From the NCBI GenBank assembly GCA_018675975.1, contig JABGXB010000002.1:380098-444097 (forward strand): DNA of 64,000 bases, written 5' to 3'. Made by a program: the position numbers and the translations under genes. Below the pieces are notes generated by a model, which saw nothing but the letters and a program-made list of their open reading frames with translations, was not told the origin of the DNA and searched no databases. Of the stretch, positions 3,001-62,188 are shown piece by piece. Within the stretch, counting starts at the first letter, position 1. Every line of letters starts with the position of its first letter. The DNA is from Candidatus Woesearchaeota archaeon. Its GTDB lineage: Archaea > Nanobdellota > Nanobdellia > Woesearchaeales > JABGXB01.

Positions 3001-3631
3001 TTTTAAATGTACAAGTAAATGGGAATTCAAAAACATAGAAAAGGGAGAACTTTGCCCGTTAACTGAAGATATTTATAACAATTTAATTTGTAAAAAAGGT
3101 GAACTTAAGTGGCAAGTAATACAAAAAAGAGATTTTGAAGTTAAACCATTTGTAGAAGATGGTGTAACATATATTATGGCAAAAAGAGACAATACTATTG
3201 AATTTATTGATGTTTCAATAGATGATTTAAAAAATTCGGATCAATATTCATCAGACCTCAAACATTACATATCAAACAGTATAAAAAATTGTCAAAATAA
3301 AAATGAAATCAAAATAAAAGAATATGCTGATTCAGATAATAAAGGAAAATTAACAGATATAAAATTTGAATGTAAAGAAGAGTTATTATGGGAAGAAACA
3401 ACAACAAAGAATATAGATTTAAACAATATTGAAGGAAGTTATTGTATGTCAAATCAACTAAATATTAATTTATTTTATGATGATACGCAGTATGTATGCA
3501 CGGGTGAAGATGTCCCAGGAGAACTTGAAATTTTTGCATCAAATATAGCTACAGTACACGATTGGAACAATAAAGAAAATTTATTTTCAAACCTTTTTAA
3601 TGAAATAATCGATGGAATAAGAATAAAATGA
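2..3631 (+). CDS. Cys-rich secreted/surface protein, 5'-truncated by the window edge
   Basis: The frame of the 602..3631 ORF stays open back to base 2 (NTNIVIINKQYDEEKEEIICKDNSY...), so the TTG at 602 is not the real start. Repeated Cys-containing modules such as CCPGNSCYDGNECIEN, GSVC, GSTC, GELC, GSYC. Stop overlaps the next ATG (ATGA). Confidence 0.8.
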   Translation, partial: NTNIVIINKQYDEEKEEIICKDNSYTTARYLRCLDEFDNDLNLKPHAGGDENNLKQGESIYKETWNLDDSDYIDVKDNTAISLKENNFIDSKNITLSFDFIGDEIGAPQLEIEAYSYEFENQNIDPIIIQIKPEKYYPNKKTKINQFIEIENFTKFHIECTSPEAKELCKIKNIRVYTDKEFNKIKNICSNNRSFISINNLKNLDQDESLSTSQTICEKSSDHNKYIINGSNELGTYRTCCIPDKNDYFLGKNGACISGNYIDNENYNNINNDNVFTSTGFLLVYKEIDGSEKTKFISNIYANSNYKIEKTPLNNITRVHIENLDELYYNISKNENNEIIELKNYYPNIIYSDKVYTCGIDNSHFNSAFKSIYDEKLKTNINKLSLFPELTEDGSKLDYPDNNYCKNIGEFFCNIDGTFKIADTSLLQFHNFTNDKSYIYPDNISELVTTPTEISGLTKDSEINLETDKQNLACCPGNSCYDGNECIENQAQFPSVDFEYSNYINLEKGQKYKRETNKNGMPYKFDSIEKPKICAGKFLEKKYEVDEVADGWIDYEEIVDWTGNYKGSCMPKQCLTPIFLLDKQSKDYIKESSENQLINFRSTLQDKQFVCVDHGFFTKDHICSYKNETETKGVWSTRTSVIIKELAKKVNKTIEESPDKYNYMIHCDNTSNILINNIDLDHGSVCILRISTEPINELVGINDENVEFTWATTINNPNNISNFENWINKLDLEPGSTCIEKYKNIDETKTKCGVYKNNDISFNVILDNKYKTIYFEETELSTIEQIDLFILDDFVKTLINFFSFEETEIIETLQKAPSFSINKYFKSETKNAGEDKKNIEIYSYDLIEMAIESGKYKSDTGIKSMKIKMNNLKSAESLKYKIKKKVEEKGLITSSGIQRWKKFESDQIEGCVKDNIEYLESNKLIKCKYIWKVFEEDSDAYEPRPTSYSVAIEGSTYTDDTKEYIKNKENTLCETKEEIFISEKLPLWKTKTSFAYGTMNFKCTSKWEFKNIEKGELCPLTEDIYNNLICKKGELKWQVIQKRDFEVKPFVEDGVTYIMAKRDNTIEFIDVSIDDLKNSDQYSSDLKHYISNSIKNCQNKNEIKIKEYADSDNKGKLTDIKFECKEELLWEETTTKNIDLNNIEGSYCMSNQLNINLFYDDTQYVCTGEDVPGELEIFASNIATVHDWNNKENLFSNLFNEIIDGIRIK

Positions 3632-26206: not shown

Positions 26207-29200
26207 ATGTTAAAAAAAGGGGTGTTTTTTAATTTATTAGTACTGATTTTATTAGTTTTACCTTTAATTCAAGGAGCTGAGTACTATTCAGTTCCAGATA
26301 ATTTTGATTTTTTTAATAGAACCGATGTTAAATTTAATCCTGACTTAATTAGTTCAGCTACTTATACTTGTGCGGATATTAATGGTAATTTATGTGAACG
26401 TTTTCCTGATGATAGTTGTGAACTTTTTATTAATTCAAATGAATTAGAAAAATCAGGAACAAATTTATGTTCAAATAATGCTGGTTGTGTTTTTTTAAAC
26501 CCTCCTAAAGGTTATGGTGGCGAAGGTACACCATTATCTCATTTATGTAATGTTGAAAATTATGATTATTATAATCAACCTTTACTTAGTTTAATGGCAC
26601 AATGTGTAACTGCAAATGATGGTGTTGATTGTGATTTAAATTCAACTTTTCAAGGTTATGACAGTCAAATGTGTAATATTGTTTTATGTTCTATAAATAA
26701 AGAAAATGAAATAAATGGTACTATATCAGTTCCTCAAGGTTTAAATGTTGGGATTGGCGATATAACTGTTAATTTTATTGCATCATTAGCGGTATCAAAT
26801 AGTCCAGGATACAAAGGTATTGTAGAGCTTAAAGATAATAAATTATTTTATAGAATACAAGGTTTACCCGATAATTTACCAAACGGTGTTTTATCTATTA
26901 GTGCTGATTCTAAATTTAATTTACAAAAAGAAATTAAAAAAAATGTAGAAATTAATACAATAAATAATATAGATTTACTTTTTACAATTGATGTAAATGT
27001 TAATTTAGATTTGACATTTAAATCCAATGGTGTTGAAATATTAAATCCAAAAGGTTATGTAACTGTAATTAGTGAAATTGATTTAAGGGAAGAAACTAAG
27101 GATTTTTCTGATGATTTAATGAATTTTCCAGATTTACCTGCAAGAAATGTAACTGTATTTTCTTATATTGATGGATATGAATTTAAAAAAACCAAATTTG
27201 AATTGACTGAAGATATTAATATTAAAGAGATTGATTTAAAAGTTTTAACGTCTCCAAAACATATCACACTAACTGTTAAAAATTTCAATGATGTTGATTT
27301 ACCAGATGTAAATATATATTTCAAATCCACAGGTAATAGTCCCTTTTCTGGATTTAATAAAACTGATACTACTGGAAATTCTGGTTTTAATTTACCTGTT
27401 GGTGCAGCTGGATATTTTTTATTCAAAAAATTCGGTTATGTTGAAAAAATTGTAAATTATGATTCAACTAATTTTAATTCTAATATTCAATTAGATGCGT
27501 GGGTATCTAGAAAATGTTCTGAATTTGGCGGGGATTTATACTTAAGAAAAACATTACTTTCTGAAAATAAATATTGTTCTTCCTCTGGTTATATTAATAT
27601 GTACAAAAATAATATTTCTTTTTCTGAAGGAAATGTTCCATTAGATGAAAATAATATAGATGATTATGTTTGTTGTACTGAAATTGTTACTACTAATTTA
27701 CCATTTAAAGATACTGATTATGATGGTGTTTTTGATCATGTAGATGTTTGTCCTAAAAATGCATTAATACAAACAAAAAATGATCCATTATATTCTGAAA
27801 CTGAATCCCCAAGTAAATCTCATGAAGATATTTCTTTTTGTCAAGATGGTGTAGATAATGATTGTGATGGGGCAATAGATAATTTAGATGATGATTGTAA
27901 TAATGTTTGTTCAATTAATAATTGTAATATTAATGACAAAGAATATTGCTTTGATAATGATGGAACTCCTGAAACAAAAACAATTAATAAAGATACAAGT
28001 GGTATTGCTATACTTGATGATACTTTATTTGAATATTGTTCCCAATGTCAATCAATTGACTCAGCATTTTGTCAAGATAAATTATTAGGTCAGGTAGATT
28101 ATGAATGTTGTAATAATGTTTGTGAAACTCCTGAAGATATTTTTAATTTAAATGTTGAAGATTCTATTTGTTCTGCAAATCAAAATGTTTGTAAAAGTGG
28201 AACATGTGTTTTATTAGATTCATGTGTACAAAATACATTTTTTGGTAAAATTAATATTTTAGATGCAAATGCAGAAAATAGCTGTGTTTGTGGTTCAACA
28301 ATAGTAGATTATAATAATCAAGATGAATCTTCTGCTTGTTGTATTAATGGAAATTATTATTCTGATTGTAATGGAATATTAAATACTTTTAAAATCAAAT
28401 TAAGTTTTTATGATCAAAAAGGACAAGATTTATTTTTACCATTTTCAGAACAAGTACAATTATTAATTATTCCAAGAGAAACTTCAAATATTAAACCATT
28501 TAGATTTGACCAAACTGGTTCAAATGGAATTATAACTGGTCTTTTAAGTTCTGATTATACTTTAATAGTAACTGCCGTTGATCGAAATCCTGAATTTGTA
28601 GAAATAACTAAATCTGATTTTGAAAAAGCAGTTGATAATTCACATGAAATAAATAAAAGAGTTGAGTTTAAAACAAATTTAAATTTAGAGTGTGCAAATA
28701 AAGAACCTAATGTTAATTTTAAAGTTTCTTCAATTAAATCAGAACCAAATTCAAATATAACTTGGACAAATCCATGTAGTGAATATAATGAAAGTAATTT
28801 AATTACTCATTATTTAATTAAAAGAACTAAATTAAATTATTTTGATTTTAGAACTAAAGATTTAGTTACGGATTATACAAATTTAATAAGTAATTCATTT
28901 GGTGTGGGTATCGATTATAGGGATGATGGTTTTTTACCTTCTGATTATGCTTCAGAATTTGTTGCATTAATTCCCAATAATAAATATGAAATAGATTCAA
29001 ATAGTGATTGTACTGATGAAAGCAATAGTGAATGTGCATTAAAGGATGAATTTGGAAGAATTATACATAAAGAAAATTGGACTTATGTTGATGAATTAGA
29101 TAAATGGGGTATAGAATTAGATGGAAATAAAAATTCATATCTTTATGAAATGCGTGCATATTATGTAGGTAATAGACATAGTAAATTTTCAATACCTGAT

Positions 29201-32200
29201 TTAGTTTTAGACTATAGAATTAATTTAGTAAATAATAATGAATTTTTACAAATAGATCATTTGTCAAATAGATTTAGCGAAAATAATTTTTATAGTAATG
29301 AAATGACGTATATTGGTGATTCAAATACAATAACTAATGTAAATAAAATTTTATCTTTAACTAATTTGGGTGTAGATTCACAAAAATCAACAAGAATGAA
29401 ATTTTTATCAGAATTAAAAAACAGTATTTTTAATTCAGGCCATGAAATTTGTACTTATTATAAAGGTGAATTTTGTGCAGAGTATATTAATGATGATTAT
29501 GCATCTCAAAATGTAGGTTTATTAGATGATAATATTTTTACAGGTAATTTAGATCCAAATGATTTAAAACAATTAATTAGTGAATATTCACAAGCAGATA
29601 AATTTAATTCAAATGATTTATTGCAAAATGTACCAAGTGTACGTGTTGAATGTAATCAATTCAATTTTCCAAAAAGAATTGAAAATACAGCCGAATCAAT
29701 TTGTTTTAGTGAATCTGGTGTAAGTGGTGAAAGATATCCTTTTGTTTGTTCAATAACTAGTAATCCAAATAAAACTCAATGTATTAAATATCCTGATTTG
29801 TTAAATAGTGGATCTACAGAATTTCAAAAGTTTAGACATGATATATTAAAAGATACTGATTTAGGTTTTGGTTTTAATTCACAAAATGAATATAATGAAC
29901 CGTTACAACAAGAAGATCCGATTTCAAAATTATCATTAATTACTCAAATTAATGTCAAATCAAATCTTTATACTTCTTTTGATAGGGGTGATTCAGTTTA
30001 TGATACTTGGCAAAGTTGTACTGATGCATTAATTCCTTTAAATAAAGATGAAACATATAGAGAAAGTGGTTGTTATGGCTATAGATCTAAAAATGCATGT
30101 TTAGATAATCCTTGTAATTTTGGTTATGAGGGTAAATGTGAATATTATGATTCTGGTTTTAGTGAAAATGGTGATGAAATTTCAAAGGGTTTTTGTTATG
30201 ATTCAAAACCAATAGTAAATCATTGTGATTTGGTAAATACAGATGATTTATATCAATTTGGAAATATAACTGAAAATATTTGTTCTAATTTAGGTCAATG
30301 TTATTTAGGAAAAGATCAAAATAGTGATAATGATTTTGTTTGTTTAGAATGTACTCAAGCAACAACTTGTTCTGATTATAAAAGCGAAACTGCCTGTACT
30401 AGTAGTGATGTCTGTCAATTAAATAATTGTTTATGGAATTTAACAGAAGAAAAATGTAGTGTAGATAAAAATTTAGATGGTATATCTAATGATGGAACTA
30501 GTAATGAAAACTATAAAATAAATTCATTTTTGAATTTAAATAATAATAATGAATATGAATTATTATTTAGATCTTATCCTAATGACGAACATAAAAAAAT
30601 ATCTGCAGATATTGATTCTTTTTATGCAAATGAAAAATACAAATTAACTTCAACAGCATTTAAATTACAAAATGGGGATTGGATTAAATTAAATTCAGAT
30701 GAATTTCAAACTAATGCTACTTTATTTAATGAAAACCCTACTGATGAACAATTTTCTTTTGTTCTTGAAACTAGCGGAGATGTAAATAGTGCAAAAACTC
30801 AATTATTAAATACAGAATTTGAACAATTAGATTCAAATGCAATTATTGTAAATTTAAGTTATTTTACTTTAGATAATAATGGATTACAACATAATAAAAA
30901 AACAAGAAATGTTTTAATTGATAATTTAAAACCAAATATTAGTATAGTTTTTAGTGAATTAGAGCGGCTTGATGATAAACATGATATTTTAGTATTAAGA
31001 TCTGCTGATGAACTTATTTTTGATTCAAATGGAAAAAGGAATAAATGTGATGATAAATTTGAACTTTTTAATTTTGAAACTAATGCTTTTGTTGAAATAC
31101 CATCAATTTCACCCAAAAATAATGTTTATTTCACTAATAATAAATATCAATTTTTAACTGAATTTAGTTTTAGTGAATTAGATGATGGTTTGTATAAGTT
31201 TTCATCAAAATGTAAAGATTTAGCTGGTAATGTAAATGAAAAAAGTTTAAGTTTTATATTAAATGCAGGTGTAATAATTAAAAATGTTTATCCTCTAGTT
31301 GGTGAGGTTGTAGCAGGACCTCAACAAGATTTTTCAGCTGAATTATATAGAGAAGCAAAACAATGTAAATATGAATTATATTTTAATGGAGCGAGAGTTA
31401 ATGTAACTAATAAAAACAATTTTAAAAATGATTTTAATAGTAAATTTAAATTTGGTCAAAAAATTCCTGATTATGATATTAATGAAAATAAATATATTAT
31501 TTCTGATAATGCAATAACTTTTGATGATTTATGTAGTCAACCTGATGATGAATTTAATAGTAGAAGTTGTAGGACAAGCTCTGGAACTTTTTCATTAAAT
31601 AGTACTTTTTCATCAGGTAATGTTTCATTTGGTTTTGATTTTTCAAATAATATTAAAATGTTGAATTCATTTCAAACGGGCTCAGTTTTTATTAATGCAA
31701 GTTGTTTAGTTCAAAATGGTACTGATTTTGAAGAATTTGTTCCAAAGAATTTTTCCATTACACAATTTTATATTGATAGATTGCCACCTAAAACAGAAAT
31801 TTTAACAATACCTTCAATTGCAACTTCAAAAAATACTTGGTTAAATTATGAAGATTTGAAAGGTAGTGGAACCAATGTTGGCTTTACATTTAGTTGTACA
31901 GATTATCCTAATATTGATGGTACTAATGCTGGTTGTGATGAAACTAAACTTGCAGAGTATTATATTGTAAATTATGGTACAAATTGTATTGGAAACGCAC
32001 CTTATGAATTTGCACCAAGTTTAACTGCAAGTTCAAGTAGTTCAATAAGCAAAAGTTCAACTCTTTGTTATAGATCTATTGACACATTAGGAAATAAAGA
32101 AGATGTAAATTCTATTAATTTTTTAATTGATACTGAATTTCCTGCATTTGAATTAAATGGTATTTCAAAACCTGCTTTAGATAAAGAAAATATTGCAAAT

Positions 32201-35200
32201 GATAAAAAACAAACAATAAATAATTATATTGAAGATTATAAAACAAAATTATATTTTAATACAAGTGATAAAATTACAAATATTTCAAAAATAAAATTAT
32301 ATAAAAAATCTGATAATTCATATTCATTAATTGATATATATGATTTCAATACAGAAACATCTGGTTTGATTTCAATTGATTCAAAAAGTTTAGATAATAA
32401 AAATGTACATTTTAGTTTCGTATTGCCGGTTGATGATAATATAACCAATATAAAAATTGAAGTAGAGGATTTTGCAGGAAACATTAATTCCTATAAATAT
32501 TATTTATTTTATGATTTAATTAAACCAGAATTATATATTGATTTTTTAGATAAGGGTTTTGATTATTTAAGTCCAATAAATTTTGAAGTTAGTTTAGATG
32601 ATAATAAATATATAGCTGATGAAGGATATAATTTTATTTCAAATACAGTTTTTACAAAAATAAATATAATACCTGATAAACTTCATAATTTTAATATAAG
32701 TGATGGTAATTTTAAAAATAAACAAATATTAAAAAACAAATTAGATTTTTTAAATACTTATTTTGATGCTTTAATATATAATCAATATCATAATTATGAA
32801 GAATTTGGTCTTGATAGTAAAACTGCGAATAAATTACATAATTTTGATTTTGAAACTAAACAATTAACAGGGGAAAAATTATATGGTCTTAATAATTTTA
32901 TTCCAGGCACATATAATATTACTTTATTTTATGAAGATAATTATGGTAATGGAGATAATTATACATTTAAATTATATATTAATCCAATTGAACTTTTAAC
33001 TCCTGAAAGTTTTGAAGTTAATTTATATGAAAATTCAAAAATTATTCAAATTGTAAATAGAACAACTAATGCAGAATTTGAAATTTCTTCAAATCAGTTA
33101 ATAACTGATATTATTTCTTTTTCATCAAGAGAAGATTCAACTTCAAATACACATATTGCATATAAAACAGACACACCTGATTATAGTTTGAGTTTTGATC
33201 CGAATTTAAAAATAAAAAGTGATTATAATTTACCAGTAACATTTCAAAATTCAAATATAGAATTTTCAAAAGACGGAACTATGTTAAATATTAATAATGC
33301 TAAATTTCACATTTTAGTTAAAGATATTTTTGGAACTGAATATGATACAACTATTGGTAATGATATTGCAGTTGATTTTAAAGGTCCAGAAAATTATGAA
33401 TTAAAACCAAATTTAAAACAAACAATTGATATTTTTACTTTAGATTATATGGAAATTCCAAATAGATATCAATTTTATGATTCATCTTTATATGATGAAT
33501 ATGGATTAATTACAAATAAAGAAAACTTTTACATAAGTGGTACTGTAAATACAAGAGCAGATAAACCTAAGTTATATTCAAAAAATAAAACTAATTTAAT
33601 ATATAATACTCATTTTATTGATGTAAGTGAATATCATGAAACTATTGGAGAATTTACTGTTGATTATGTTAATTTTGATCCTTATAAAAAATCTGAGCTT
33701 ATGACTACGGCAAATGAAATTTATTTAACTAATAAATTTATGAAAAGTAATGAATATATGACTGGTAATTTTGTAAATCATGAAAAAATATTATCTTCAG
33801 AACTTGATACAGAAACTCTTGGAACAAAAATAACTTTTGCAAATTTAATACAAGATAAAACACAAGCAATTTTTGAATTATATGAAAAAGAAAGTTATCC
33901 TTTATCATTTTTTAAAATATATGATTTAGAAGAATTACATGGAAGTGCTTTGCCTGAGGCACCAACAAAATATAATTTTGATTTAAAAGTTTATGATCAT
34001 TTCAATAATGATGGAAATTTCAAATCAAATAATAAGTTAGTTAATAATATTGGTTTTAATGTAACTTATGATGGTATTGCACCAAGCTATGACATTATAT
34101 TTCCAAAAGAAAGAGACTATATAATTGAAGATGACTCTCTTTTTAATTTAAATATGAATGATGATATAAAAATTGAATCAATTCATTTAAATATAGTTCG
34201 TAAAAAAATAGACGGTACTGAATTAATAATTTCAGAGACTTTCAATAATCCTGTAAATTTATTTAATAAAATATATGCAAATAATGATATTGGAATAAAT
34301 GCAGATGGAAATTATTTTTATAATTTTACAATTAAAGATGTTGCCGGAAATTTAAATAAAAGTAAGAATATTGACTTTTTTGTATTAAGAGGAGCACCAC
34401 AATTAGTGAGCAAAAGTATAGGTGGTAATAAAGTTGAAGGGGACCGTAATGAATATATTAATACTATAAAAAAACCTAATTTAGTTTTTAATTTTTCATT
34501 TAATGATGAAGATTTTGAATGGGGTTTTAATGTAAGTAATTTTTATTTAGAAAGATATGAAAATGGAAATTGGATAATAATAAAAGAATATGATAATTAT
34601 AATTTAGATTTTAATAGTATAAAACCACATAAATTAGAATATGATCCTTCTAATAGATTATTACATAGAAATTATACTAATTTCACCTTTTTTATTGAAG
34701 ATGATATTTTTAATGCTAAAGAAACTGGTGAATTAGATGAAAATAAATATAGATTACATTTTAATGCAACAAAAGGTAAAAGAGAACATTTGACATATAT
34801 TAATTTTGATTATGCACCAATAAAATTTGAAGCAGAGTATTATTTTTATTTTGTAATTGATAATACTGATCCGGATATTGACTTTAATATGCCTAGTGCA
34901 ACGAATTTATTAAATTTTGATTTTACTGGATTTAATAATGAAATTAATTTATTTAATGTATCTCCATTACCAAAACTAGATTTTGTTAAATTTTCAAATA
35001 ATGATGCAGGTGCATTTAATGGAAATGCAAAACTTGAGCAAATGGAAAATGATAATCAAGAAATTATATTAAATTATGGTATTAAATTAACTGATAAAGC
35101 ATTAAATGAAAAAACATATAATGATTTTAGTATTTTGTATGATAGGAAAATACCTGATACGACATGGACTATAGAAAGTTTAGAAAATAATATTATGCAT

Positions 35201-38200
35201 AATGAATTAGGTAAACATTTTTCAAATAATGATCAGTTTACAATTAGAGTTTCAACATCTGAAAACGTTAATTCAAATTTAATCGTAGAACAAAAAATTA
35301 ATGATGAATTTGTAATATTAAAAGTGTTCAGTCAATTTACATCTATTTCAGATACTGATATTTTAAATGGTAAATTTATTAATTTAAATGAAATTCCAAT
35401 TTCTTTCTTTCCATTAAAAGACACACATTTAAAATTTACTATTACTGGTACTGATTATGTAAATAATAATTTTGAAAATAGCACTGAAATTATTATAGAT
35501 AAAACACCTCCAAAAATATTAGACTTTAAACCATTATCTGCATCTCAAATAAAACCAAATTTTAAATTCAAAACTAATGAATTTGCAAATTGTAATTTAT
35601 TTTATGAAAATATTGATTCAAATAATTTAATTACAACAAAAAGATTATCCCAAATAAACATTATTGATCATTCATTTATTCCAAATGAAGATATAACTAC
35701 AATTCAAAGAGCCTTGGCTATAAAAAAACCAATTCCAGTTAATTTATCAATTGAATGTGAAGATAAAAGAGGTAATTTTGGTATTACTAAATTAAAATAT
35801 TATATAGATTATTCAATTCCAAATTTTGTTTTTGAAGATAGTGACAATACATGTACTGAAACTGATTGTATTAAATATAAAACATATTTTGTCGAAGAAG
35901 GTGATTATGAAAACAATGTGAGTACAATTAATTTATTAGCACACGAACTTAGTGAAGAATCTTTTTGTTATTATATCAAATTAGATAATTTAACAAATTA
36001 TAATTATTCAAATGATGATTTTAATATAATTAATGAAGATTTTGATAATATTTATTCTAAAGATTTTGACTTAAATGATCCAAATACAAAATTAAGTGTA
36101 ACTGAATTTAATAAAATATTAAATACTTTAACAAATAAAAGAATAATTCCGAATAATACTTGGACTAAATTAAAATTAAATGAAATTACTCAAAATTATT
36201 ATGACACTTTAATATTAAATGAAAGTCAAAGACATATTTTTGTAGGTACTTGTTTAGACAAATCTAATAATTCAGGATATAGTCAAGTATTAGAATATAA
36301 TATAGATTTTGATGGACCTGTTTCAATATTATTTGATGAATATAATAAACTTACAAATAAAAAAAATCACATAATTAATTTTTATACAAGGCGAGATGCA
36401 ATTTGTGATGTTGATGGTGATAATGTAATTTATACAGAACGTAAAAATGGATTATATGAATATAATTATGAAGTTGAATTAAGTGAAGGAAATAATGAAT
36501 TTGATATTAATTGTAATGCTTTAAATGAAAGAGGTATTGCAAATAGTAAAATGTATGATATTGTTTTAGATATAACACCTCCAAATTTAATAATTCATAG
36601 TGATAATGAAATTATGACTGATGATTATAAATATGAATTAAGTATTGAAAGTAATGAATTATTTGATTTAAACATTAATAATTTATTATATGGTTATTAT
36701 GATATTAAAATAAATGATATTGAAAAAAATAAAAAACAAAATTATACTTTATCATTAAATCCTGCTTTGAATATTTTTGTGATTAATATTAGTGATAAGG
36801 CAGGTAATATTGCAGGAAATTTAATTAATATAGTACGACTTACGACATCAAATGATGTATCAGATTCTTTTGTTGGATTTCCAGGTGATGGTGCAATTAT
36901 TAATAAATTAAATAGAACTGCTGCAGTATTTTCAAATACACGTGAATCACATTCTCCAATCAATTTAAATAAATCGATTTTATATTTAGAATCTTTAAAT
37001 AATCCAACTAAATTAGTTTATGGTAATTTAAGTACAAAAGTTTGTAAATTTCAACCACCTGAATCCCTTGAAAATAAAAATGATAATGATTTAGAATATA
37101 TTAATATTACAACAGAAAATGAAACCTTATATTTAAAAAAACCCATTTTAGTCCATAGTGCACAACAAAAAGGATTTTCGCTTCATAATAATATAATTGG
37201 TGATTTTGCTAAATTTAATAATACTCTATTTAATTATTCAATTAAATTTGATTCATATAAATTAAATAATATTAATATTATAGATGGTTTAAAAATATTA
37301 AATCATAAAGTTGAATATTTTTTAATGACTAGAATTTCAGATACAATATTTTTAGAATTTTTCTTTTTAGATGAATTTGGAAATAAACATTCATTTGTTT
37401 TAAGTGATGCTTTTGATAATAAATTTACAGAAGCTTCATCAAATAATGCGAAATTTAAAACTAAATTTGATATTTCAATAATTGGTGATGATATTCATTT
37501 AAATAAAATTGATTATGTATTTGAATTAACTAAAGCAATTTATTTATATAAAGATCAAAGATTAAGTCAAGAATTATCAATAAATTATTTAAGAAATGGA
37601 ATTTCTTCAGGTCTATTATCAAATTGGTGGGATTTTATTTATAGAGGAACTGATTCAGCTTATTCAGGTAGTTTAGGTGAAGATGATTTATTTGCAAACA
37701 GATATAGAACAAGTAAAGAATTGTTAAGTTTTGAAAATGTAATTGGTGGCCTTTTAACTAGTGATAATTTTTCATATAGTTTTGGATTTTATACACTTGA
37801 TTGTGAAAATATTGATGTAAATAATGTTAAATTAAATAATGAATTTGATAAACAAAAAAAAGAAATTAATTTTGAAAATATTCCTAATGATAAATATTTA
37901 ATTTCAGCTGTACCAGTTAATAATCAAAATTTTGCAGGTGTTGCTTCATTTATTTATTTTGATGTTAATAGTAATGTTCCGCAAATTAATAGAGTTAAAC
38001 CTGATTCAAATTTATTAAATGATATTAATCAACAATTTGAACATAATATTTTATTAAATTCAAATGAAAATTCTTTGAGTGAAGTCAATTATAAATTTAA
38101 AGGTCAAACAAATAATTTAAATCCTATTAGGCTAAATGATGAATATACTACATTAATGGATTTAAGGTTGGATTCAGGTATTAAAAATATATTTGAATTA

Positions 38201-38914
38201 ACTGTATTATCAACTAATGATGATTTTGCTACAACAGGTAAAGAAACATATATGGTAAATGAACGTGGATTCAATGATCCAAATTTAATCGTTTCAGAAA
38301 TTCACAAAACTTTTGATTTAAATGATGATTGTAATTTAAAATGTAGATTAAAAGGTTTTTCAGAAAATTCTTGTAAATTAACTTGTAATAATATTAATGA
38401 TGATAAATTAAATATATTATTAAGTAAACATGGTTTTAGTAAGGGTAGTAGTGAATTATTTGGAACTAAAGATAATAGTTTTAAAAGAGAAAGCGAAATT
38501 AAAAATTTCTTAAAAACATGGTATGTTGCTCCATTAAATATAACTATTACTGATTTTATTGACTTTTCAGATTATACTTTTATTTCATTAATATCTTTAG
38601 ATAATGGAGTTAATACATTAATACAACAAGCAGAAGATTTATTATCATATGAGGCAGATAGAAGTTCAATCAATATAGAAATAAAATCAATTATTGAAAA
38701 TAATGGAAATATTGATGTTTCATATATACTAAAGGACGGCATTCGTATAATTAGTATGTCTGATCATTTAAAACTCAATAATGGTGTTTATTATTTTAAT
38801 GATTTTAAAACATATAGTGATTTAGAATCTGATAATAAATACTTAAATAGTGGTGTGAATAATATATTTAATCACAGAATAAAATACAATGAAACATTTG
38901 CAATTAAAAATTAA
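26207..38914 (+). CDS. Giant (4235 aa) secreted surface protein: CarboxypepD_reg-like, TSP3/MopE-like Ca-binding, and many Ig-like modules
   Basis: Signal peptide MLKKGVFFNLLVLILLVLPLIQGAEY; DTDYDGVFDHVDVCPK; FCQDGVDNDCDGAIDNLDDDC; repeated DxAGN...DxxxP Ig-like hallmarks (CKDLAGN, VEDFAGN, IKDVAGN, CEDKRGN, ISDKAGN). Confidence 0.88.
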   Translation: MLKKGVFFNLLVLILLVLPLIQGAEYYSVPDNFDFFNRTDVKFNPDLISSATYTCADINGNLCERFPDDSCELFINSNELEKSGTNLCSNNAGCVFLNPPKGYGGEGTPLSHLCNVENYDYYNQPLLSLMAQCVTANDGVDCDLNSTFQGYDSQMCNIVLCSINKENEINGTISVPQGLNVGIGDITVNFIASLAVSNSPGYKGIVELKDNKLFYRIQGLPDNLPNGVLSISADSKFNLQKEIKKNVEINTINNIDLLFTIDVNVNLDLTFKSNGVEILNPKGYVTVISEIDLREETKDFSDDLMNFPDLPARNVTVFSYIDGYEFKKTKFELTEDINIKEIDLKVLTSPKHITLTVKNFNDVDLPDVNIYFKSTGNSPFSGFNKTDTTGNSGFNLPVGAAGYFLFKKFGYVEKIVNYDSTNFNSNIQLDAWVSRKCSEFGGDLYLRKTLLSENKYCSSSGYINMYKNNISFSEGNVPLDENNIDDYVCCTEIVTTNLPFKDTDYDGVFDHVDVCPKNALIQTKNDPLYSETESPSKSHEDISFCQDGVDNDCDGAIDNLDDDCNNVCSINNCNINDKEYCFDNDGTPETKTINKDTSGIAILDDTLFEYCSQCQSIDSAFCQDKLLGQVDYECCNNVCETPEDIFNLNVEDSICSANQNVCKSGTCVLLDSCVQNTFFGKINILDANAENSCVCGSTIVDYNNQDESSACCINGNYYSDCNGILNTFKIKLSFYDQKGQDLFLPFSEQVQLLIIPRETSNIKPFRFDQTGSNGIITGLLSSDYTLIVTAVDRNPEFVEITKSDFEKAVDNSHEINKRVEFKTNLNLECANKEPNVNFKVSSIKSEPNSNITWTNPCSEYNESNLITHYLIKRTKLNYFDFRTKDLVTDYTNLISNSFGVGIDYRDDGFLPSDYASEFVALIPNNKYEIDSNSDCTDESNSECALKDEFGRIIHKENWTYVDELDKWGIELDGNKNSYLYEMRAYYVGNRHSKFSIPDLVLDYRINLVNNNEFLQIDHLSNRFSENNFYSNEMTYIGDSNTITNVNKILSLTNLGVDSQKSTRMKFLSELKNSIFNSGHEICTYYKGEFCAEYINDDYASQNVGLLDDNIFTGNLDPNDLKQLISEYSQADKFNSNDLLQNVPSVRVECNQFNFPKRIENTAESICFSESGVSGERYPFVCSITSNPNKTQCIKYPDLLNSGSTEFQKFRHDILKDTDLGFGFNSQNEYNEPLQQEDPISKLSLITQINVKSNLYTSFDRGDSVYDTWQSCTDALIPLNKDETYRESGCYGYRSKNACLDNPCNFGYEGKCEYYDSGFSENGDEISKGFCYDSKPIVNHCDLVNTDDLYQFGNITENICSNLGQCYLGKDQNSDNDFVCLECTQATTCSDYKSETACTSSDVCQLNNCLWNLTEEKCSVDKNLDGISNDGTSNENYKINSFLNLNNNNEYELLFRSYPNDEHKKISADIDSFYANEKYKLTSTAFKLQNGDWIKLNSDEFQTNATLFNENPTDEQFSFVLETSGDVNSAKTQLLNTEFEQLDSNAIIVNLSYFTLDNNGLQHNKKTRNVLIDNLKPNISIVFSELERLDDKHDILVLRSADELIFDSNGKRNKCDDKFELFNFETNAFVEIPSISPKNNVYFTNNKYQFLTEFSFSELDDGLYKFSSKCKDLAGNVNEKSLSFILNAGVIIKNVYPLVGEVVAGPQQDFSAELYREAKQCKYELYFNGARVNVTNKNNFKNDFNSKFKFGQKIPDYDINENKYIISDNAITFDDLCSQPDDEFNSRSCRTSSGTFSLNSTFSSGNVSFGFDFSNNIKMLNSFQTGSVFINASCLVQNGTDFEEFVPKNFSITQFYIDRLPPKTEILTIPSIATSKNTWLNYEDLKGSGTNVGFTFSCTDYPNIDGTNAGCDETKLAEYYIVNYGTNCIGNAPYEFAPSLTASSSSSISKSSTLCYRSIDTLGNKEDVNSINFLIDTEFPAFELNGISKPALDKENIANDKKQTINNYIEDYKTKLYFNTSDKITNISKIKLYKKSDNSYSLIDIYDFNTETSGLISIDSKSLDNKNVHFSFVLPVDDNITNIKIEVEDFAGNINSYKYYLFYDLIKPELYIDFLDKGFDYLSPINFEVSLDDNKYIADEGYNFISNTVFTKINIIPDKLHNFNISDGNFKNKQILKNKLDFLNTYFDALIYNQYHNYEEFGLDSKTANKLHNFDFETKQLTGEKLYGLNNFIPGTYNITLFYEDNYGNGDNYTFKLYINPIELLTPESFEVNLYENSKIIQIVNRTTNAEFEISSNQLITDIISFSSREDSTSNTHIAYKTDTPDYSLSFDPNLKIKSDYNLPVTFQNSNIEFSKDGTMLNINNAKFHILVKDIFGTEYDTTIGNDIAVDFKGPENYELKPNLKQTIDIFTLDYMEIPNRYQFYDSSLYDEYGLITNKENFYISGTVNTRADKPKLYSKNKTNLIYNTHFIDVSEYHETIGEFTVDYVNFDPYKKSELMTTANEIYLTNKFMKSNEYMTGNFVNHEKILSSELDTETLGTKITFANLIQDKTQAIFELYEKESYPLSFFKIYDLEELHGSALPEAPTKYNFDLKVYDHFNNDGNFKSNNKLVNNIGFNVTYDGIAPSYDIIFPKERDYIIEDDSLFNLNMNDDIKIESIHLNIVRKKIDGTELIISETFNNPVNLFNKIYANNDIGINADGNYFYNFTIKDVAGNLNKSKNIDFFVLRGAPQLVSKSIGGNKVEGDRNEYINTIKKPNLVFNFSFNDEDFEWGFNVSNFYLERYENGNWIIIKEYDNYNLDFNSIKPHKLEYDPSNRLLHRNYTNFTFFIEDDIFNAKETGELDENKYRLHFNATKGKREHLTYINFDYAPIKFEAEYYFYFVIDNTDPDIDFNMPSATNLLNFDFTGFNNEINLFNVSPLPKLDFVKFSNNDAGAFNGNAKLEQMENDNQEIILNYGIKLTDKALNEKTYNDFSILYDRKIPDTTWTIESLENNIMHNELGKHFSNNDQFTIRVSTSENVNSNLIVEQKINDEFVILKVFSQFTSISDTDILNGKFINLNEIPISFFPLKDTHLKFTITGTDYVNNNFENSTEIIIDKTPPKILDFKPLSASQIKPNFKFKTNEFANCNLFYENIDSNNLITTKRLSQINIIDHSFIPNEDITTIQRALAIKKPIPVNLSIECEDKRGNFGITKLKYYIDYSIPNFVFEDSDNTCTETDCIKYKTYFVEEGDYENNVSTINLLAHELSEESFCYYIKLDNLTNYNYSNDDFNIINEDFDNIYSKDFDLNDPNTKLSVTEFNKILNTLTNKRIIPNNTWTKLKLNEITQNYYDTLILNESQRHIFVGTCLDKSNNSGYSQVLEYNIDFDGPVSILFDEYNKLTNKKNHIINFYTRRDAICDVDGDNVIYTERKNGLYEYNYEVELSEGNNEFDINCNALNERGIANSKMYDIVLDITPPNLIIHSDNEIMTDDYKYELSIESNELFDLNINNLLYGYYDIKINDIEKNKKQNYTLSLNPALNIFVINISDKAGNIAGNLINIVRLTTSNDVSDSFVGFPGDGAIINKLNRTAAVFSNTRESHSPINLNKSILYLESLNNPTKLVYGNLSTKVCKFQPPESLENKNDNDLEYINITTENETLYLKKPILVHSAQQKGFSLHNNIIGDFAKFNNTLFNYSIKFDSYKLNNINIIDGLKILNHKVEYFLMTRISDTIFLEFFFLDEFGNKHSFVLSDAFDNKFTEASSNNAKFKTKFDISIIGDDIHLNKIDYVFELTKAIYLYKDQRLSQELSINYLRNGISSGLLSNWWDFIYRGTDSAYSGSLGEDDLFANRYRTSKELLSFENVIGGLLTSDNFSYSFGFYTLDCENIDVNNVKLNNEFDKQKKEINFENIPNDKYLISAVPVNNQNFAGVASFIYFDVNSNVPQINRVKPDSNLLNDINQQFEHNILLNSNENSLSEVNYKFKGQTNNLNPIRLNDEYTTLMDLRLDSGIKNIFELTVLSTNDDFATTGKETYMVNERGFNDPNLIVSEIHKTFDLNDDCNLKCRLKGFSENSCKLTCNNINDDKLNILLSKHGFSKGSSELFGTKDNSFKRESEIKNFLKTWYVAPLNITITDFIDFSDYTFISLISLDNGVNTLIQQAEDLLSYEADRSSINIEIKSIIENNGNIDVSYILKDGIRIISMSDHLKLNNGVYYFNDFKTYSDLESDNKYLNSGVNNIFNHRIKYNETFAIKN

Positions 38915-41900
38915 TAATTTTTTATGTATTTTATTTATTTTAATTACTTTATTTAGTTTTAATTTTGTAAATGCAGAAGTTGATTTTAAAATCAATTATG
39001 TTTCTCATACTACCCCTTTAATAACAGTCGATTTTCCACTTTATGATAATATTATTTTAGATGGTGTAGAAATATATAAAACTAAAAATAATATACTTTT
39101 TAAATTTGATAAGACGAACGGAATTAATAATTTTAAATATGTTGAGCAAGAGGGGAATATAAATTTTATAAAAATTAAATCCGATAATGCAATACTTCCT
39201 GGTGAGTATTTTGTAACAATATATGGTATTGATTCATATGGAAATAAACAAAATTATACTGAATTATTAATAGTGGATTTAATCTCACCAATTTTAGATA
39301 CATTTGTTCCAGATAAAAGCCATTTTAAATTTGACAAAGGTCAATTAAATTTAATGTTTAATTTTTCAGAGGGTGTTATTTTTAATTTGTTTTTAGATGA
39401 TCAATTAGTTATTCAACAAAATCCAAAAAGTAAATCAAGTAATGGTATAAATATTATTAATGATACTTATAGTTTAGTTTTTGAAAATAATAAATATTTT
39501 TTATATGGGCAATTACCAAATGGAGATCATAAACTTAAAATAGAATTTTGGGATTATGCTTTAAATGGAAAAGTAATAGAAGAAATTGATTTTTTTTCTT
39601 TTGATGGTAATTTTGATTTAATACCTTTAAATTTCCCATTTTATTTTATTAATAAAAGTCCTGCAATTTTAAAATATAATACTTTTGTTAATGTTGATTG
39701 TAAAATTTCAAAAACGGGGACTTTACAACAATGTCCTTTATCTGGTGAACCCGCAATATTAACTGGTGATAAAACTCATAGTTTTAATATAATTCATAAT
39801 AAATTATTTTTCAATACTGATACATTTAAATTATGTTATTATTGTATGACTTCAGATGATGATTTGTATACTAAAGAAAATATATATACTCTTGACAATA
39901 CAAAACCAGTTTTGAGTAGTGTAGAATATAAACCTGCAAGTAAAATAGTAATTTTAAAAAATGAAAAGGATGAATTTTCTTTTGAATTAAATATTAATAC
40001 TGATGATAGTTCAATATGTAATTCTTATGATGTAAGTACTAGTAAACAAGGTTTAACTTTGGATTTCTATTTAAATCATGATTCAAATACGATCTCAAAT
40101 TTATTTAAATCAATTCACAATATTAAATTTAATAATTTAGATGATAAAAAAACATATACAAAATATATTAAATGTATGAATAAAGCAGGTTTAATTTCAA
40201 ATACACTTCGTGTTGATTTTAAAGTTGATTCTAGTGTGGTATTAGATTTTGAAATTAACAGTCCAAAAGAATTTGTAAATAAACAATTAATTGATATTCA
40301 ATTAACTAGTAGTATGGAATCAAATTGTATTTATGCTACTGATAGTGGTACTACAATTAAATTAAATACAGAAAATAATTTTATTCATGCATCAAGTGTG
40401 TCTCTAGGTACTAAAAATGAATATAATTTTACATTTACTTGTCAAACTTCAACTCAAGAAAAAATTAAAAAATTAAAATTAAGGTTTGATAATAGACCTC
40501 CAAAAATACATAATGTCTTTTTTTATGATTCAGATATTGTAGAAAATGGAACTATTACAAAATTAAATAAATTAACTAAAAACAATATTGACTTTAAAAT
40601 TAATTTTACAGATAATGTATTTTCCAATAATATTTTAATAAGTCATTTTTTAGTTAATGTTCCTACAAATATAACAAAAATAATTTCTAATAGTGATTTT
40701 AAAAATTATAATAAAAATCAAAAATATGAAATATCAACACAAGATTTAGAAAATGATATGGTTTATTATATTGGGCTTTTAGCAAAAGATCCTGCAAATA
40801 ATTCTGCATTAACTCCTTTTTTTAAACCAATTATGTTTGTTAATAAACCATTTATTATGCCACCAAAAACATGTATTGATATTGATAAAGATGGATTTGG
40901 TAGAAATTGTCCAAAAGGTCCTGATTGTAATGATAGAGATGCATCTTTAACAAATAATTGTATTAGTACTTGTTTAGATAAAGATGGTGATGGATTTGGT
41001 TTAGGATTAACTTGTACTGGTTTAGATTGTGATGATACAAATAAAAGTCTTAATATTGCTTGTACAAATGGATGTACTATTGATATGGATGGTGATCAAT
41101 ATGGTATTAATTGTAATTTAGGTGATGATTGTGATGATACTAATAATTTAACTCATGAAAATTGTTTAACTAATTGCTTTAGTGATATTGATGGTGATGG
41201 TTATGGACTTGGTTGTATTTTAGGTGATGATTGTGATGAAACAAATATTTTAATTCATAAAAATTGTGCAAATGGTTGCTTTAGTGATAATGATGTTGAT
41301 ACTTATGGTGAAGGTTGTGACGCGGGTTTAGATTGTGATGATACTAATAATTTAATTCATGAAAATTGTCCAAATGGATGTATACAAGATGCTGATGGTG
41401 ATGGTAATGGTTTGAATTGTACCGCCGGTGATGATTGTAATGGGAAAAATCCATTATTGGCTGAAGTTTGTATTGAATCTGGTTGTGTAATAGATTCTGA
41501 TGGTGATAAATATGGTTGGGAATGTACATTAGGTCCTGATTGTAATGATTTAAATCCAACAATTCATTATGGTTGTACTAATTTATGTGTATATGATTTT
41601 GATGCTGATGGTTTAGGACTTGGTTGTAAAAATGGTCCTGATTGTGATGAAGGTAATATTAACTTTTTTGCAAATTCATGCCAAAAAGATTGTAAATTTG
41701 ATGCTGATTGTGATGGAATTGATGATTCATGGGAAAGTATATTTGGAAGTAATCCAAATGTAAAAGATCAAGATAAAATTATATTAGGTTTTGATAAAAA
41801 AAATATTGATATATATAGAAATTATCCTATAACTCCTCCTGAGCCAGGAACTGAACTTAAAAATCAAACAATAAAAAATCAAACTGTAGTTCAACCATTA

Positions 41901-42809
41901 GTTGAAGAAGAATTTAATCCAATTTGGTATATACTAATAATTGTATTATTATTTATTATTTTAGGCGCGGGTGGTTATATGATTTATAGAAAACAAAATC
42001 CTCCTGAAATTAAACAAACTTATAGTGATACTCAAAATGTTCCAAATTTAAATAATAAAACATCAACTAATTCAATTAATAAAATTTTTAATGAAAAACC
42101 AATATTTTCAATTCCTAATATTTTAGAAGGAGATAAATTAAAATCTAAATGGGAAGAAGAAATCTTAACTGAACAAAAAGAAAAATATAAATCAAAATTA
42201 GAAAATAGAAAACAATTATTTAGTAAATTTGTAAATCGTTTAGAAGAAGAATTAGAATCAGTTAAAAAAGAAAAGAAAGTTGATTTTAATAAAGAATTTG
42301 ATGAAGGTTATTTAGATTTAAAAGATTTAGTTTCTGGTAAAAAGAAAAAATCTGATTTAAAATTACCAAAAAGTGCTTTTATGAGTTTAGATAAAATGGT
42401 TCAAAAGCATGGTAGTAAAATTAATTTTAAAGATTTAAATAAAATAAGTAGTGAAAATAAAAAAGTAATTTTAGATTTAATGAAAATGGATTCTAAAAAC
42501 GAATTTGTTAAAATTGATGATATTAAAAAAGAAAGCGACTACACATTAGATAATTTACAAAAGGCAATAGATGGTGCAGGAATAAAATTAAAAACTAATC
42601 CTGTAAAAAAATTATCTAAAATTATTAATAAAAATAATGTCAAATTTGACAAAAGCTCAGTTAAAAATATATTAAACAAATCAAATCCTAATTTGAAAAA
42701 TACTGATTATAATAAAATATTATTTGAATTAAAAAATATAGTTAATTCTGATATTTCCATTAATAAAAAATCAATAAATAAAAATAAAAAAAAAGTGGTA
42801 AAAAAATGA
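38889..42809 (+). CDS. Membrane-anchored surface protein: Ig-like repeats, eight Cys-rich Asp/Gly repeats, TM, Lys-rich cytoplasmic tail
   Basis: Signal MKHLQLKINNFLCILFILITLFSFNFVNA; repeats CxxDxDGDGxGxxCxxGxDCDDTN; TM IWYILIIVLLFIILGAGGYMIY. Confidence 0.88.
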   Translation: MKHLQLKINNFLCILFILITLFSFNFVNAEVDFKINYVSHTTPLITVDFPLYDNIILDGVEIYKTKNNILFKFDKTNGINNFKYVEQEGNINFIKIKSDNAILPGEYFVTIYGIDSYGNKQNYTELLIVDLISPILDTFVPDKSHFKFDKGQLNLMFNFSEGVIFNLFLDDQLVIQQNPKSKSSNGINIINDTYSLVFENNKYFLYGQLPNGDHKLKIEFWDYALNGKVIEEIDFFSFDGNFDLIPLNFPFYFINKSPAILKYNTFVNVDCKISKTGTLQQCPLSGEPAILTGDKTHSFNIIHNKLFFNTDTFKLCYYCMTSDDDLYTKENIYTLDNTKPVLSSVEYKPASKIVILKNEKDEFSFELNINTDDSSICNSYDVSTSKQGLTLDFYLNHDSNTISNLFKSIHNIKFNNLDDKKTYTKYIKCMNKAGLISNTLRVDFKVDSSVVLDFEINSPKEFVNKQLIDIQLTSSMESNCIYATDSGTTIKLNTENNFIHASSVSLGTKNEYNFTFTCQTSTQEKIKKLKLRFDNRPPKIHNVFFYDSDIVENGTITKLNKLTKNNIDFKINFTDNVFSNNILISHFLVNVPTNITKIISNSDFKNYNKNQKYEISTQDLENDMVYYIGLLAKDPANNSALTPFFKPIMFVNKPFIMPPKTCIDIDKDGFGRNCPKGPDCNDRDASLTNNCISTCLDKDGDGFGLGLTCTGLDCDDTNKSLNIACTNGCTIDMDGDQYGINCNLGDDCDDTNNLTHENCLTNCFSDIDGDGYGLGCILGDDCDETNILIHKNCANGCFSDNDVDTYGEGCDAGLDCDDTNNLIHENCPNGCIQDADGDGNGLNCTAGDDCNGKNPLLAEVCIESGCVIDSDGDKYGWECTLGPDCNDLNPTIHYGCTNLCVYDFDADGLGLGCKNGPDCDEGNINFFANSCQKDCKFDADCDGIDDSWESIFGSNPNVKDQDKIILGFDKKNIDIYRNYPITPPEPGTELKNQTIKNQTVVQPLVEEEFNPIWYILIIVLLFIILGAGGYMIYRKQNPPEIKQTYSDTQNVPNLNNKTSTNSINKIFNEKPIFSIPNILEGDKLKSKWEEEILTEQKEKYKSKLENRKQLFSKFVNRLEEELESVKKEKKVDFNKEFDEGYLDLKDLVSGKKKKSDLKLPKSAFMSLDKMVQKHGSKINFKDLNKISSENKKVILDLMKMDSKNEFVKIDDIKKESDYTLDNLQKAIDGAGIKLKTNPVKKLSKIINKNNVKFDKSSVKNILNKSNPNLKNTDYNKILFELKNIVNSDISINKKSINKNKKKVVKK
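40873..41735 (+). repeat. Eight ~34-aa Cys/Asp/Gly-rich tandem protein repeats (MopE/putative metal-binding type)
   Basis: CIDIDKDGFGRNCPKGPDCNDRDASLTNNC..., CLDKDGDGFGLGLTCTGLDCDDTNKSLNIAC..., CTIDMDGDQYGINCNLGDDCDDTNNLTHENC..., and so on. Confidence 0.9.
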
Positions 42810-43345
42810 AAAAAGGTCAAATTAATTTAGTTTTTGCATCCATTATGGGAGTTATTATTATAGGTTTATTATTTGCACTTGCATATAGAGGGATTGCAAC
42901 TATATTAGATGAAAGTGATAATAAAAGAATTCCAATTTTAGTTTCTGATATAAAAGGTCAAGTTAAATCACATGCATATGATTATGGATCAACTACAAAA
43001 AAAGGTTTTATTTTTCCAAATTCAATTCAAAAAATGTATTTAGTTGATTATAATGCGATTTCAAATTGTGGTGGTATTGATACTTCGCTTCCTTTTCAAA
43101 TTAGTAATATGATTAAAAGTGAATGTAATGCCCAGATTGAAAATCATAAAAAAAAATCACTTATTTTAAATGGAGATGGTTTTTTTAAGGGATTTGATAT
43201 TGGTGAATTAGAATTAGGTGATATTGAACTATCTATTGATTATGCAGAAAAATTTGGTGATGGTATATTATCTATTGATTTAAAAAAACAAATTGAACTT
43301 GAATTTGAAGGAATTTCTTCAAAAACAAAAATTACTATAAAATGA
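42806..43345 (+). CDS. Small class III signal (pilin-like) protein
   Basis: MKKGQINLVFASIMGVIIIGLLFALAY; ATGA overlap with upstream gene. Confidence 0.75.
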   Translation: MKKGQINLVFASIMGVIIIGLLFALAYRGIATILDESDNKRIPILVSDIKGQVKSHAYDYGSTTKKGFIFPNSIQKMYLVDYNAISNCGGIDTSLPFQISNMIKSECNAQIENHKKKSLILNGDGFFKGFDIGELELGDIELSIDYAEKFGDGILSIDLKKQIELEFEGISSKTKITIK

Positions 43346-44376
43346 ATTCCAAAGGACAAGTTGCTCAAGCTGCAAAATGGATTTTTGTTGTAATTATTGG
43401 AGTGTTTTTATTAGGTTTATTTTTTAATATGATTTTTAAAAATGTAGAAGATTCTAAAAATGAAAATGAAAGATTAATTTTGAGTTATCTAAATACTTTT
43501 ATAACAAATACAAGAATTAATCCAAATTTTCAAATACAAAGAGATTTAGATAAAAATGTTCAATTTGAAGTTGATTATAATGATTTACTCATTGGAAAAA
43601 ATAGTCGATCTATATCTGATGTAGTATTATATAGTCCAAAAAATTTTGATACAAAAAATATTATGGGAAATTCAATTCCATTTAAATCTCCTTTTTATTT
43701 AACGAATATTTTAACAATGTTTGATCAAAATAAACAATATGTTATTGTATATGACTTTCCTAAAAATGGACGTTTATTTTCTCTGTTTAATAACACAATT
43801 CCCTCTTTTTTAAATGTTAAAATTTATTATGAGGATGATTTTGATAATGAAGAATTAAATTTATTTGATTCAGAGTTTTCAGAAATTTTATTTTTTACAC
43901 AAAAAGAACAATATATTCCTAATTATCCTAATATTGCTGATTACAAATATAAAACATATACAAAATTTGCATTTGGTGATGATAGAAATTTTAAATTTGC
44001 AAAAGTAAGTTTTTATGATGATACTAAAATCATTCCATTAATAGATAAAAGTATGTTTATTGGTTCAATTGCAAGTGATGATTATAATGAATTTTTAAAA
44101 CAAACAAGTAAATTAATGCCTTTTATGAAAAGAATTTTTGTATTACAATATAATAAAACAAATGAATTGATTAATACAAATGGTCGTTGTTTTTTAAATT
44201 ATCAAAATATACAAAATGAATTATTAAAACTTCATGATAAAATTAATACATATCAAGATTCGGTTTTATTTGATAATCAGAATATAATTGATTTAATTTA
44301 TTCTATTCAAGAAATTGATGTTATTGTTAAGCGTGAAAATGATGAAATTAAAGGGAGATGTTCGAGGGTTTATTAA
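43342..44376 (+). CDS. Class III signal (pilin-like) surface protein
   Basis: MNSKGQVAQAAKWIFVVIIGVFLLGLFF; ATGA overlap. Confidence 0.75.
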   Translation: MNSKGQVAQAAKWIFVVIIGVFLLGLFFNMIFKNVEDSKNENERLILSYLNTFITNTRINPNFQIQRDLDKNVQFEVDYNDLLIGKNSRSISDVVLYSPKNFDTKNIMGNSIPFKSPFYLTNILTMFDQNKQYVIVYDFPKNGRLFSLFNNTIPSFLNVKIYYEDDFDNEELNLFDSEFSEILFFTQKEQYIPNYPNIADYKYKTYTKFAFGDDRNFKFAKVSFYDDTKIIPLIDKSMFIGSIASDDYNEFLKQTSKLMPFMKRIFVLQYNKTNELINTNGRCFLNYQNIQNELLKLHDKINTYQDSVLFDNQNIIDLIYSIQEIDVIVKRENDEIKGRCSRVY

Positions 44377-44852
44377 TGAAAAATAAAGGTCAATTTCAAA
44401 TGATGGAATCTGTTATGTTTTTAGTTATTTTTATTATTCTAGCTGCATTTTTAGTTGTTTTATATTTTACTTTTTCAATTGATAGTCAAAAAGCAGAAAT
44501 AGAAATTGCAGTTGATAAGGATAGTATAGATAAATCTCAAATTATTTTTAATTTACCGGAAATTAAATGTAGTGAAAAATATTCAAATGTAAATAATTGT
44601 ATTGATTTATTAAAATTAAAATATTTAGAACCTATTTTAAAATCAAATAGGGCTTATTATTATAATATATTTGGAAATGTTAAAATTGAATGGGAATATA
44701 TTTATCCAGATCTTCCTGGTGTAAATGTTTTATTTGATAGTGAACCTGAAAATTATTTAAGAAAAAGACCGACTGAATTGCCAGTTAATATATATAATGT
44801 TAATACTAATACAATGTCATTGGCATTATTAAAAATCACATATTATAATTAA
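44376..44852 (+). CDS. Class III signal (pilin-like) small protein
   Basis: MKNKGQFQMMESVMFLVIFIILAAFLVVLYF; start at 44376 (TAATG overlap) preferred over 44358. Confidence 0.72.
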   Translation: MKNKGQFQMMESVMFLVIFIILAAFLVVLYFTFSIDSQKAEIEIAVDKDSIDKSQIIFNLPEIKCSEKYSNVNNCIDLLKLKYLEPILKSNRAYYYNIFGNVKIEWEYIYPDLPGVNVLFDSEPENYLRKRPTELPVNIYNVNTNTMSLALLKITYYN

Positions 44853-44853
44853 A

Positions 44854-45375
44854 ATGAAAAAAGGACAAACAGAAATAGTTGGATTAATTTTTATTGTATT
44901 ATTTGTAATTATAATTGGAAGTGTATTTTTATTAGTTTTTTTAAAATCAGGTGATGATACTTTTAGTAGGTCTGAAATAAAAACATCAATTCTTGCAAAT
45001 AAATTTTTGGCAACTTTAATTGAAACTGAAATTGAAGAGTGTAGTAGAAAATCAATAAAATCAATAATTAAAGATTTTTATGAAGGGGATACTCAATGTT
45101 TAGTTCCACCTTATGATACTTCAGTAAATTCTAAAGAATATTTGGAAGATAATGTATTTCCCATTATTTTAACTAAAATATTTTCAGATAAAGGAAGGGC
45201 ATATAACTTTTCAATTACTTATGTTAAAGGGGGAGTTGAAGAACCGCCATTTTACTCAAGTCAAGGTAATTTTGATAAACAATATAGTACCATAAGAAAA
45301 GCAGCTCCATTTATCATTCCAATGGATAATCCTCAAAATAAGATTATTTTTAATTTAATTACTAAAACTAATTAA
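44854..45375 (+). CDS. Class III signal (pilin-like) small protein
   Basis: MKKGQTEIVGLIFIVLFVIIIGSVFLLVFL. Confidence 0.75.
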   Translation: MKKGQTEIVGLIFIVLFVIIIGSVFLLVFLKSGDDTFSRSEIKTSILANKFLATLIETEIEECSRKSIKSIIKDFYEGDTQCLVPPYDTSVNSKEYLEDNVFPIILTKIFSDKGRAYNFSITYVKGGVEEPPFYSSQGNFDKQYSTIRKAAPFIIPMDNPQNKIIFNLITKTN

Positions 45376-58683: not shown

Positions 58684-58686
58684 AAT

Positions 58687-62092: not shown

Positions 62093-62188
62093 TTTTAATA
62101 TAATAACTAATCTATTGGTTATTTAGTATTGCAGGTAGTTTTATAAATAATTTTTCTATATTAAAAGTATAATAAAAGTGGTGATTGA

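Follow-up and report, generated by a model that had tools for sequence, protein, structure and literature searches.

The stretch of DNA analysed here (the window) comprises 64,000 nucleotides (nt) from Candidatus Woesearchaeota archaeon (GCA_018675975.1, contig JABGXB010000002.1, 380,098-444,097). It contains a cassette of six abutting or overlapping + strand genes at positions 26207-45375, designated G, T, A, B, C and D. This cassette probably encodes the minor-pilin and adhesin module of a type IV pilus of a DPANN class (Nanoarchaeia/Woesearchaeota and relatives). Its products probably make up the end by which a hair-like appendage attaches. The genome of the window consists of 1,028,475 bases in 3 contigs and is 100% complete. 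The six genes had been noticed in a preceding sequence-only reading, and all open reading frames and junctions were reproduced. Proteins are given with their length in amino acids (aa):

26207..38914, + strand: G, giant secreted protein of 4235 aa with a signal peptide, 86 Cys and one Ig-like (Big_13) domain
38889..42809, + strand: T, surface protein of 1306 aa with a signal peptide, a single C-terminal transmembrane (TM) segment and a basic predicted cytoplasmic tail
40872..41711, + strand: eight C/D repeats of T, ~34 aa each, of the DxDxDG type with Cys
41907..41993, + strand: TM segment of T, aa 1007-1035, from hydropathy, its position conserved in relatives
41994..42806, + strand: Lys-rich tail of T, 271 aa, predicted to be cytoplasmic
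42806..43345, + strand: A, pilin-like, MKKGQ, 179 aa
43342..44376, + strand: B, pilin-like, MNSKGQ, 344 aa
44376..44852, + strand: C, pilin-like, MKNKGQ, 158 aa, the best-conserved member
44854..45375, + strand: D, pilin-like, MKKGQ, 173 aa

The genes are tightly packed. T starts (38889) inside the end of G (38914), ATGA overlaps link T to A (42806) and A to B (43342), the B/C junction is a TAATG at 44376, and one nt separates C from D, which begins at 44854. Because of this TAATG, C most likely starts at 44376 (MKNKGQ) and not at 44358, the start given by the ORF caller.

A, B, C and D have the N-terminus of class III prepilins: a basic residue, G or A, Q and then, immediately after the motifs listed above, a hydrophobic stretch. 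A K-[GA]-Q type motif heads nearly all members of the C and D families and many A and B members (33-44 homologs per family). In the window, a K/R-G-x motif with a hydrophobic N-terminus was found in 7 of 46 open reading frames of at least 100 aa, and A-D make four of these seven. AlphaFold2 models of B and C, for which alignments of 42 and 44 homologs were used, predict an N-terminal helix of 56-57 residues, in keeping with the ~50 residues of a long pilin alpha-1. In the B model (predicted local distance difference test, pLDDT, 85.1; predicted template modelling score, pTM, 0.80), helix 3-59 is followed by a beta-rich part (64-224) and a helical domain (236-339). The C model (pLDDT 93.4, pTM 0.76) comprises helix 3-58, two short helices and then four strands (102-110, 116-121, 130-141 and 146-157). 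In the textbook plan of a pilin, a four-strand sheet comes after a long helix. Profile comparisons with hhalign align A with B over 77 columns (probability 89.6), with the N-terminal half in common, and C with D over 45 columns (probability 96.2), which correspond to the N-terminal helix. A common hydrophobic helix by itself is weak evidence of shared descent. Together, the N-terminal motif, the helices shared in profile comparisons and the long-helix models support the earlier description of the small proteins as pilin-like. Matches of A, B and C to PDB sequence profiles were judged spurious, and RecA matches of A (best 5e-4) contained no single qualifying stretch. A Foldseek search of C against viral models yielded nothing significant.

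The cassette is neither a product of chance nor an oddity of one genome. Among 60 genomes of the order searched with T, 11 had matches. As read from the DNA around these matches, the same architecture, one or more large secreted or anchored proteins followed by four prepilin-like genes of ~175, 350, 165 and 170 aa, is present in the genomes G010, G056, G016, G022 and G012; in G054 it extends as far as the contig end. A-D of these relatives align end to end with those of the window at 16-36% identity. A scan of the whole GTDB with a C profile (84,980 bacterial and archaeal species, each represented by a single genome) confirmed 46 loci. Their titles are Woesearchaeota, Nanoarchaeota, Nanoarchaeia, DPANN group archaeon or uncultured archaeon, so that nearly all carry the name of a DPANN lineage; absence elsewhere is not proved, because a single short peptide pattern seeds the scan. 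According to profile searches, the order A-B-C-D on one strand is kept in all 37 loci that have all four small genes, with median intergenic distances of 7.5, 1.5 and -0.5 nt. The remaining nine loci are mostly cut by contig ends, and L036 and L057 have no A. C was found in 241 of 288 sampled genomes of the order (150 of 169 among high-quality ones) and in 218 of 279 sampled genomes of the phylum, usually in single copy. Other orders of the class contributed twelve loci, all of which have B, C and D and seven of which have an A detected by profile. The conserved synteny of the cassette in relatives supports the proposal that its products form one assembly.

Candidates for the machinery that would assemble such a pilus are encoded elsewhere in the genome. 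Two Peptidase_A24 proteins, both over the cut-off, carry the motifs GAGD and GGAD, in line with the GxHyD motif of prepilin peptidases; one lies ~5 kb before the window. An unconserved gene order, or small proteins lacking pilin-like structure in a genome devoid of a processing peptidase, had been named beforehand as fatal to the proposal; the order is conserved and the peptidases are present. The genome has a single PF00437 ATPase (775 aa, Walker A GTRGSGKT, FHADNP box, 61-63 bits). It adjoins a gene for a 745-aa multi-TM protein, a candidate TadC-like platform (T2SSF, E 6.8e-4, below the cut-off). A search for PilB/PilC-type genes, suggested by the sequence-only reading, thus yielded the ATPase, and a platform protein at sub-threshold level. 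In locus L019 (5902-7058), two adjacent, similar-looking small 4-TM proteins are encoded upstream of the ATPase/platform pair; the one tested has no Pfam family.

Among NCBIfam models, ArlI/FlaI matches the ATPase best (E 2.7e-48), which would fit a divergent archaellum, i.e. a rotary filament, with ArlF/ArlG-like stator pilins. This match reaches, however, 165 bits against a cut-off of 550, and A-D have no archaellin or ArlF/G match in Pfam, so that an archaellum is very improbable. Type IV filament machinery also serves DNA uptake and secretion in bacteria, and A-D might form a competence-type or protein-secretion pseudopilus. DNA import via pili was indeed proposed for other DPANN archaea (PMC9563170). 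By contrast, ComEC (PF03772) was not matched in the complete window genome by a search that detected it in 10 control bacteria, and giant adhesin-like genes are no hallmark of either function. We regard uptake or secretion as improbable.

Of the two large proteins, T was confirmed as described in the sequence-only reading, with eight Cys/Asp-rich repeats (aa ~662-941), the TM segment and the basic tail (61 K+R versus 39 D+E). The repeats probably constitute a stalk, predicted to depend on Ca or disulfides. G had been called an Ig-like giant; one Big_13 domain (E 2.9e-8, aa 1652-1684) was found, which is the sole Pfam basis for this label. Pfam scans of G and T at E<=1 revealed neither a MopE or TSP3 match of the T repeats nor a PilY1 beta-propeller or DUF2341 in either protein, and S_layer_C (PF05124) was likewise unmatched in both. 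In BLAST, window G has short but significant segments in common with its counterparts in G010 and G054 (best 7.6e-7). Since only short segments match, full-length orthology is not claimed. A full-length G profile built from ten positional counterparts left both G and T of the window unmatched. In many relatives, a single protein of ~1400-2800 aa is encoded between the prepilin-type gene E (see below) and A. Besides a signal peptide, this protein carries a C-terminal TM segment with a basic tail, and its N-terminus often contains CC. The two-gene form occurs in the window and some other genomes (G010, G022, G056). Judging from matches of the G-protein profile to the single proteins of L051 (E 8e-29) and L062 (E 1e-26), the G + T pair looks like the split form of one anchored adhesin. 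Window G is the longest giant among the loci read. T was seen in the order of the window and not in the other orders read. At L037:1135-8970, T and A form a single open frame, inside which a prepilin-type site (KKGE) follows the T tail. This single readable fusion fits a cytoplasmic T tail and an N-in topology of A. L044 and L054 also seemed to have T-A fusions, but these were discarded because the stretches are masked (N) and unreadable.

Two further genes at the beginning of the window belong to the same context:

3628..7920, + strand: E, prepilin-type (MKKGQVSIFIILG), 1430 aa
1..3631, + strand: Y, secreted, 1595 aa, beginning ~1.16 kb before the window and overlapping the start of E

Over its aa 1-484, E is matched (hmmsearch E 6.6e-54) as the ortholog of a shorter KGQ-headed gene that in relatives immediately precedes G or T; this adjacency was read in L022, L027, L059, L060 and L062. 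With 1430 aa in the window versus ~250-690 aa in relatives, E has ~950 extra aa after residue 484, and these are Cys-rich. By position, Y is equivalent to a secreted ~1000-aa gene that precedes E in G010 and G054. In most of the twelve loci from other orders, an E-like KGQ-headed gene and a secreted ~1200-aa protein are found in front of the small genes. In many relatives, D is closely followed by 1-3 genes whose products, 82-119 aa long, have heads resembling KKAQGxSINxIIIAAIALxVLVVL and Cys-containing ends. The window genome has two matches to these small Cys-rich pilins (C1:458758 and 459044), both in a second pilin-like cluster (L112:4233-12230; G000:C1:456330-464327). In this cluster, two small KGQG/KASG-headed pilins are followed by four consecutive KG-/KA-headed proteins (232, 162, 205 and 860 aa). 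A similarly laid-out cluster adjoins the A-D cassette in G010 and G012. The small Cys-rich pilins are candidates for the pilus shaft. The six genes are not the stand-alone undescribed system suspected at the outset, but one part of a more extensive type IV pilus gene set, to which E, Y, the second pilin cassette and the small Cys-rich pilins also belong. A further surface-type run lies at 57493-63217 of the window, where genes for a MKKKGTAGMAASLVGLL-headed protein (396 aa) and a TM protein (514 aa) are found together with three lipoprotein-like genes in a row.

The closest working analogue is the priming and tip complex of bacterial type IVa pili, in which PilY1 and four minor pilins prime and cap the pilus (PMC7541494). 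Both have four minor pilins with a large secreted adhesin, an assembly ATPase and a prepilin peptidase. In contrast to this complex, the cassette carries archaeal class III signal motifs, lacks a Pfam match to the PilY1 propeller or DUF2341 in G and T, and adds the membrane-anchored T with its cytoplasmic tail, while A-D have no sequence or fold match to known minor pilins. The pilus loci of Thermoproteales (clades 4B and 4G) also encode two large proteins, one with a C-terminal TM segment (S-layer-like) and one signal-peptide adhesin, as well as several Cys-containing minor pilins (PMC4858521). They differ in lineage, they have no Pfam or NCBIfam family in common with the cassette, and the ATPase is encoded outside the cassette locus. 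The EppA-dependent pili of Methanococcus maripaludis (minor pilins EpdA-C and others) share class III signal motifs and several minor pilins with the cassette (PMC3875500), but no family match is detectable, and the giant/T pair is peculiar to the present locus. Saccharibacteria resemble the DPANN archaea in being ultrasmall, belonging to a host-dependent group and having conserved type IV pili; these are, however, bacterial pili whose host-binding role in episymbiosis was tested (PMC12206443), whereas a host-contact role of the cassette is hypothetical. Pilins of nanoarchaea or other DPANN lineages were stated as not identified (PMC4858521; PMC9563170), and type IV pili have been reported for Nanoarchaeota (PMC6142677). 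Our literature search, which left most subscription journals outside its coverage, found no paper describing the cassette.

In the pilus-module model, A, B, C and D would be synthesised as prepilins with N-in/C-out membrane insertion, and one of the two PibD-type peptidases would cleave them ahead of the Gln. The four would then bundle into an initiation complex that may prime the pilus and sit at its tip; the single TadA/ArlI-type ATPase would drive this assembly together with the TadC-like platform protein. G, with E, would be the large extracellular binding part displayed with the A-D complex. T would be the membrane-anchored, repeat-stalked part of the same adhesin, with its TM segment and basic tail holding the complex at the cell surface. 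The shaft may be built from the small Cys-rich KGQGxSIN pilins of the second cluster.

Several points weigh against this model. The main difficulty is that T probably stays in the membrane: its TM segment and cytoplasmic tail should hold it there, and therefore it cannot itself ride the pilus tip unless it is cleaved. Pfam scans assigned A-D to no family, pilin families included, and left their relatives uncovered as well; in NCBIfam, no model covers A-D of the window. Foldseek searches of B and C against the PDB gave no significant match to any solved pilin, so that the structure prediction called for in the sequence-only reading bore out a long N-terminal helix plus head and left the fold of these proteins unmatched. 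A is missing in the two loci mentioned above and undetected in 5 of the 12 loci from other orders, and the similarity between G and its positional counterparts is weak. The T2SSF match of the platform protein (19.2 bits) is below the curated cut-off of 25.2 and was not seen by the Pfam scan. Finally, PF00437 is present in 286 of 288 genomes of the order; its co-occurrence with C is therefore uninformative on linkage, and its near-universal presence says little about a tie to the cassette.

Given the probable retention of T in the membrane, an envelope complex that is fixed and does not extend is kept as an unlikely but serious possibility. Here, A-D would form a short pseudopilus-like membrane stub that carries or anchors G and T in the S-layer or surface coat. 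In nearly all loci read, T indeed has a membrane anchor with a tail of 103-371 aa. Furthermore, a ~680-900-aa gene directly follows D in 10 of the 12 loci from sister orders (L113-L124), and the one case tested matches S_layer_C (PF05124, E 2.6e-11). C-terminally anchored S-layer-like proteins were also proposed for the pilus loci of Thermoproteales (Makarova et al. 2016, PMC4858521). On the other hand, the small Cys-rich pilins close downstream of D in many relatives are suited for a shaft, and the S-layer match of the window genome is far off (C1:555336, ~111 kb beyond the window). The pilus module remains the preferred reading.

A rather doubtful extension would be a class-wide DPANN machine: a four-pilin bundle in permanent association with a giant adhesin that is anchored in the membrane and has a cytoplasmic tail, acting as a non-extending attachment organelle that would maintain contact with the outside or relay it as a signal across the membrane, with a B head fold new among solved structures. 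With regard to how DPANN archaea hold on to other cells, the cassette offers four pilin-like families that have no Pfam model, occur in most genomes of one phylum and are linked to large variable surface proteins. The A-D families provide named targets for proteomics, cryo-electron tomography and host-range comparison, and their profiles can be used to annotate hundreds of genomes.

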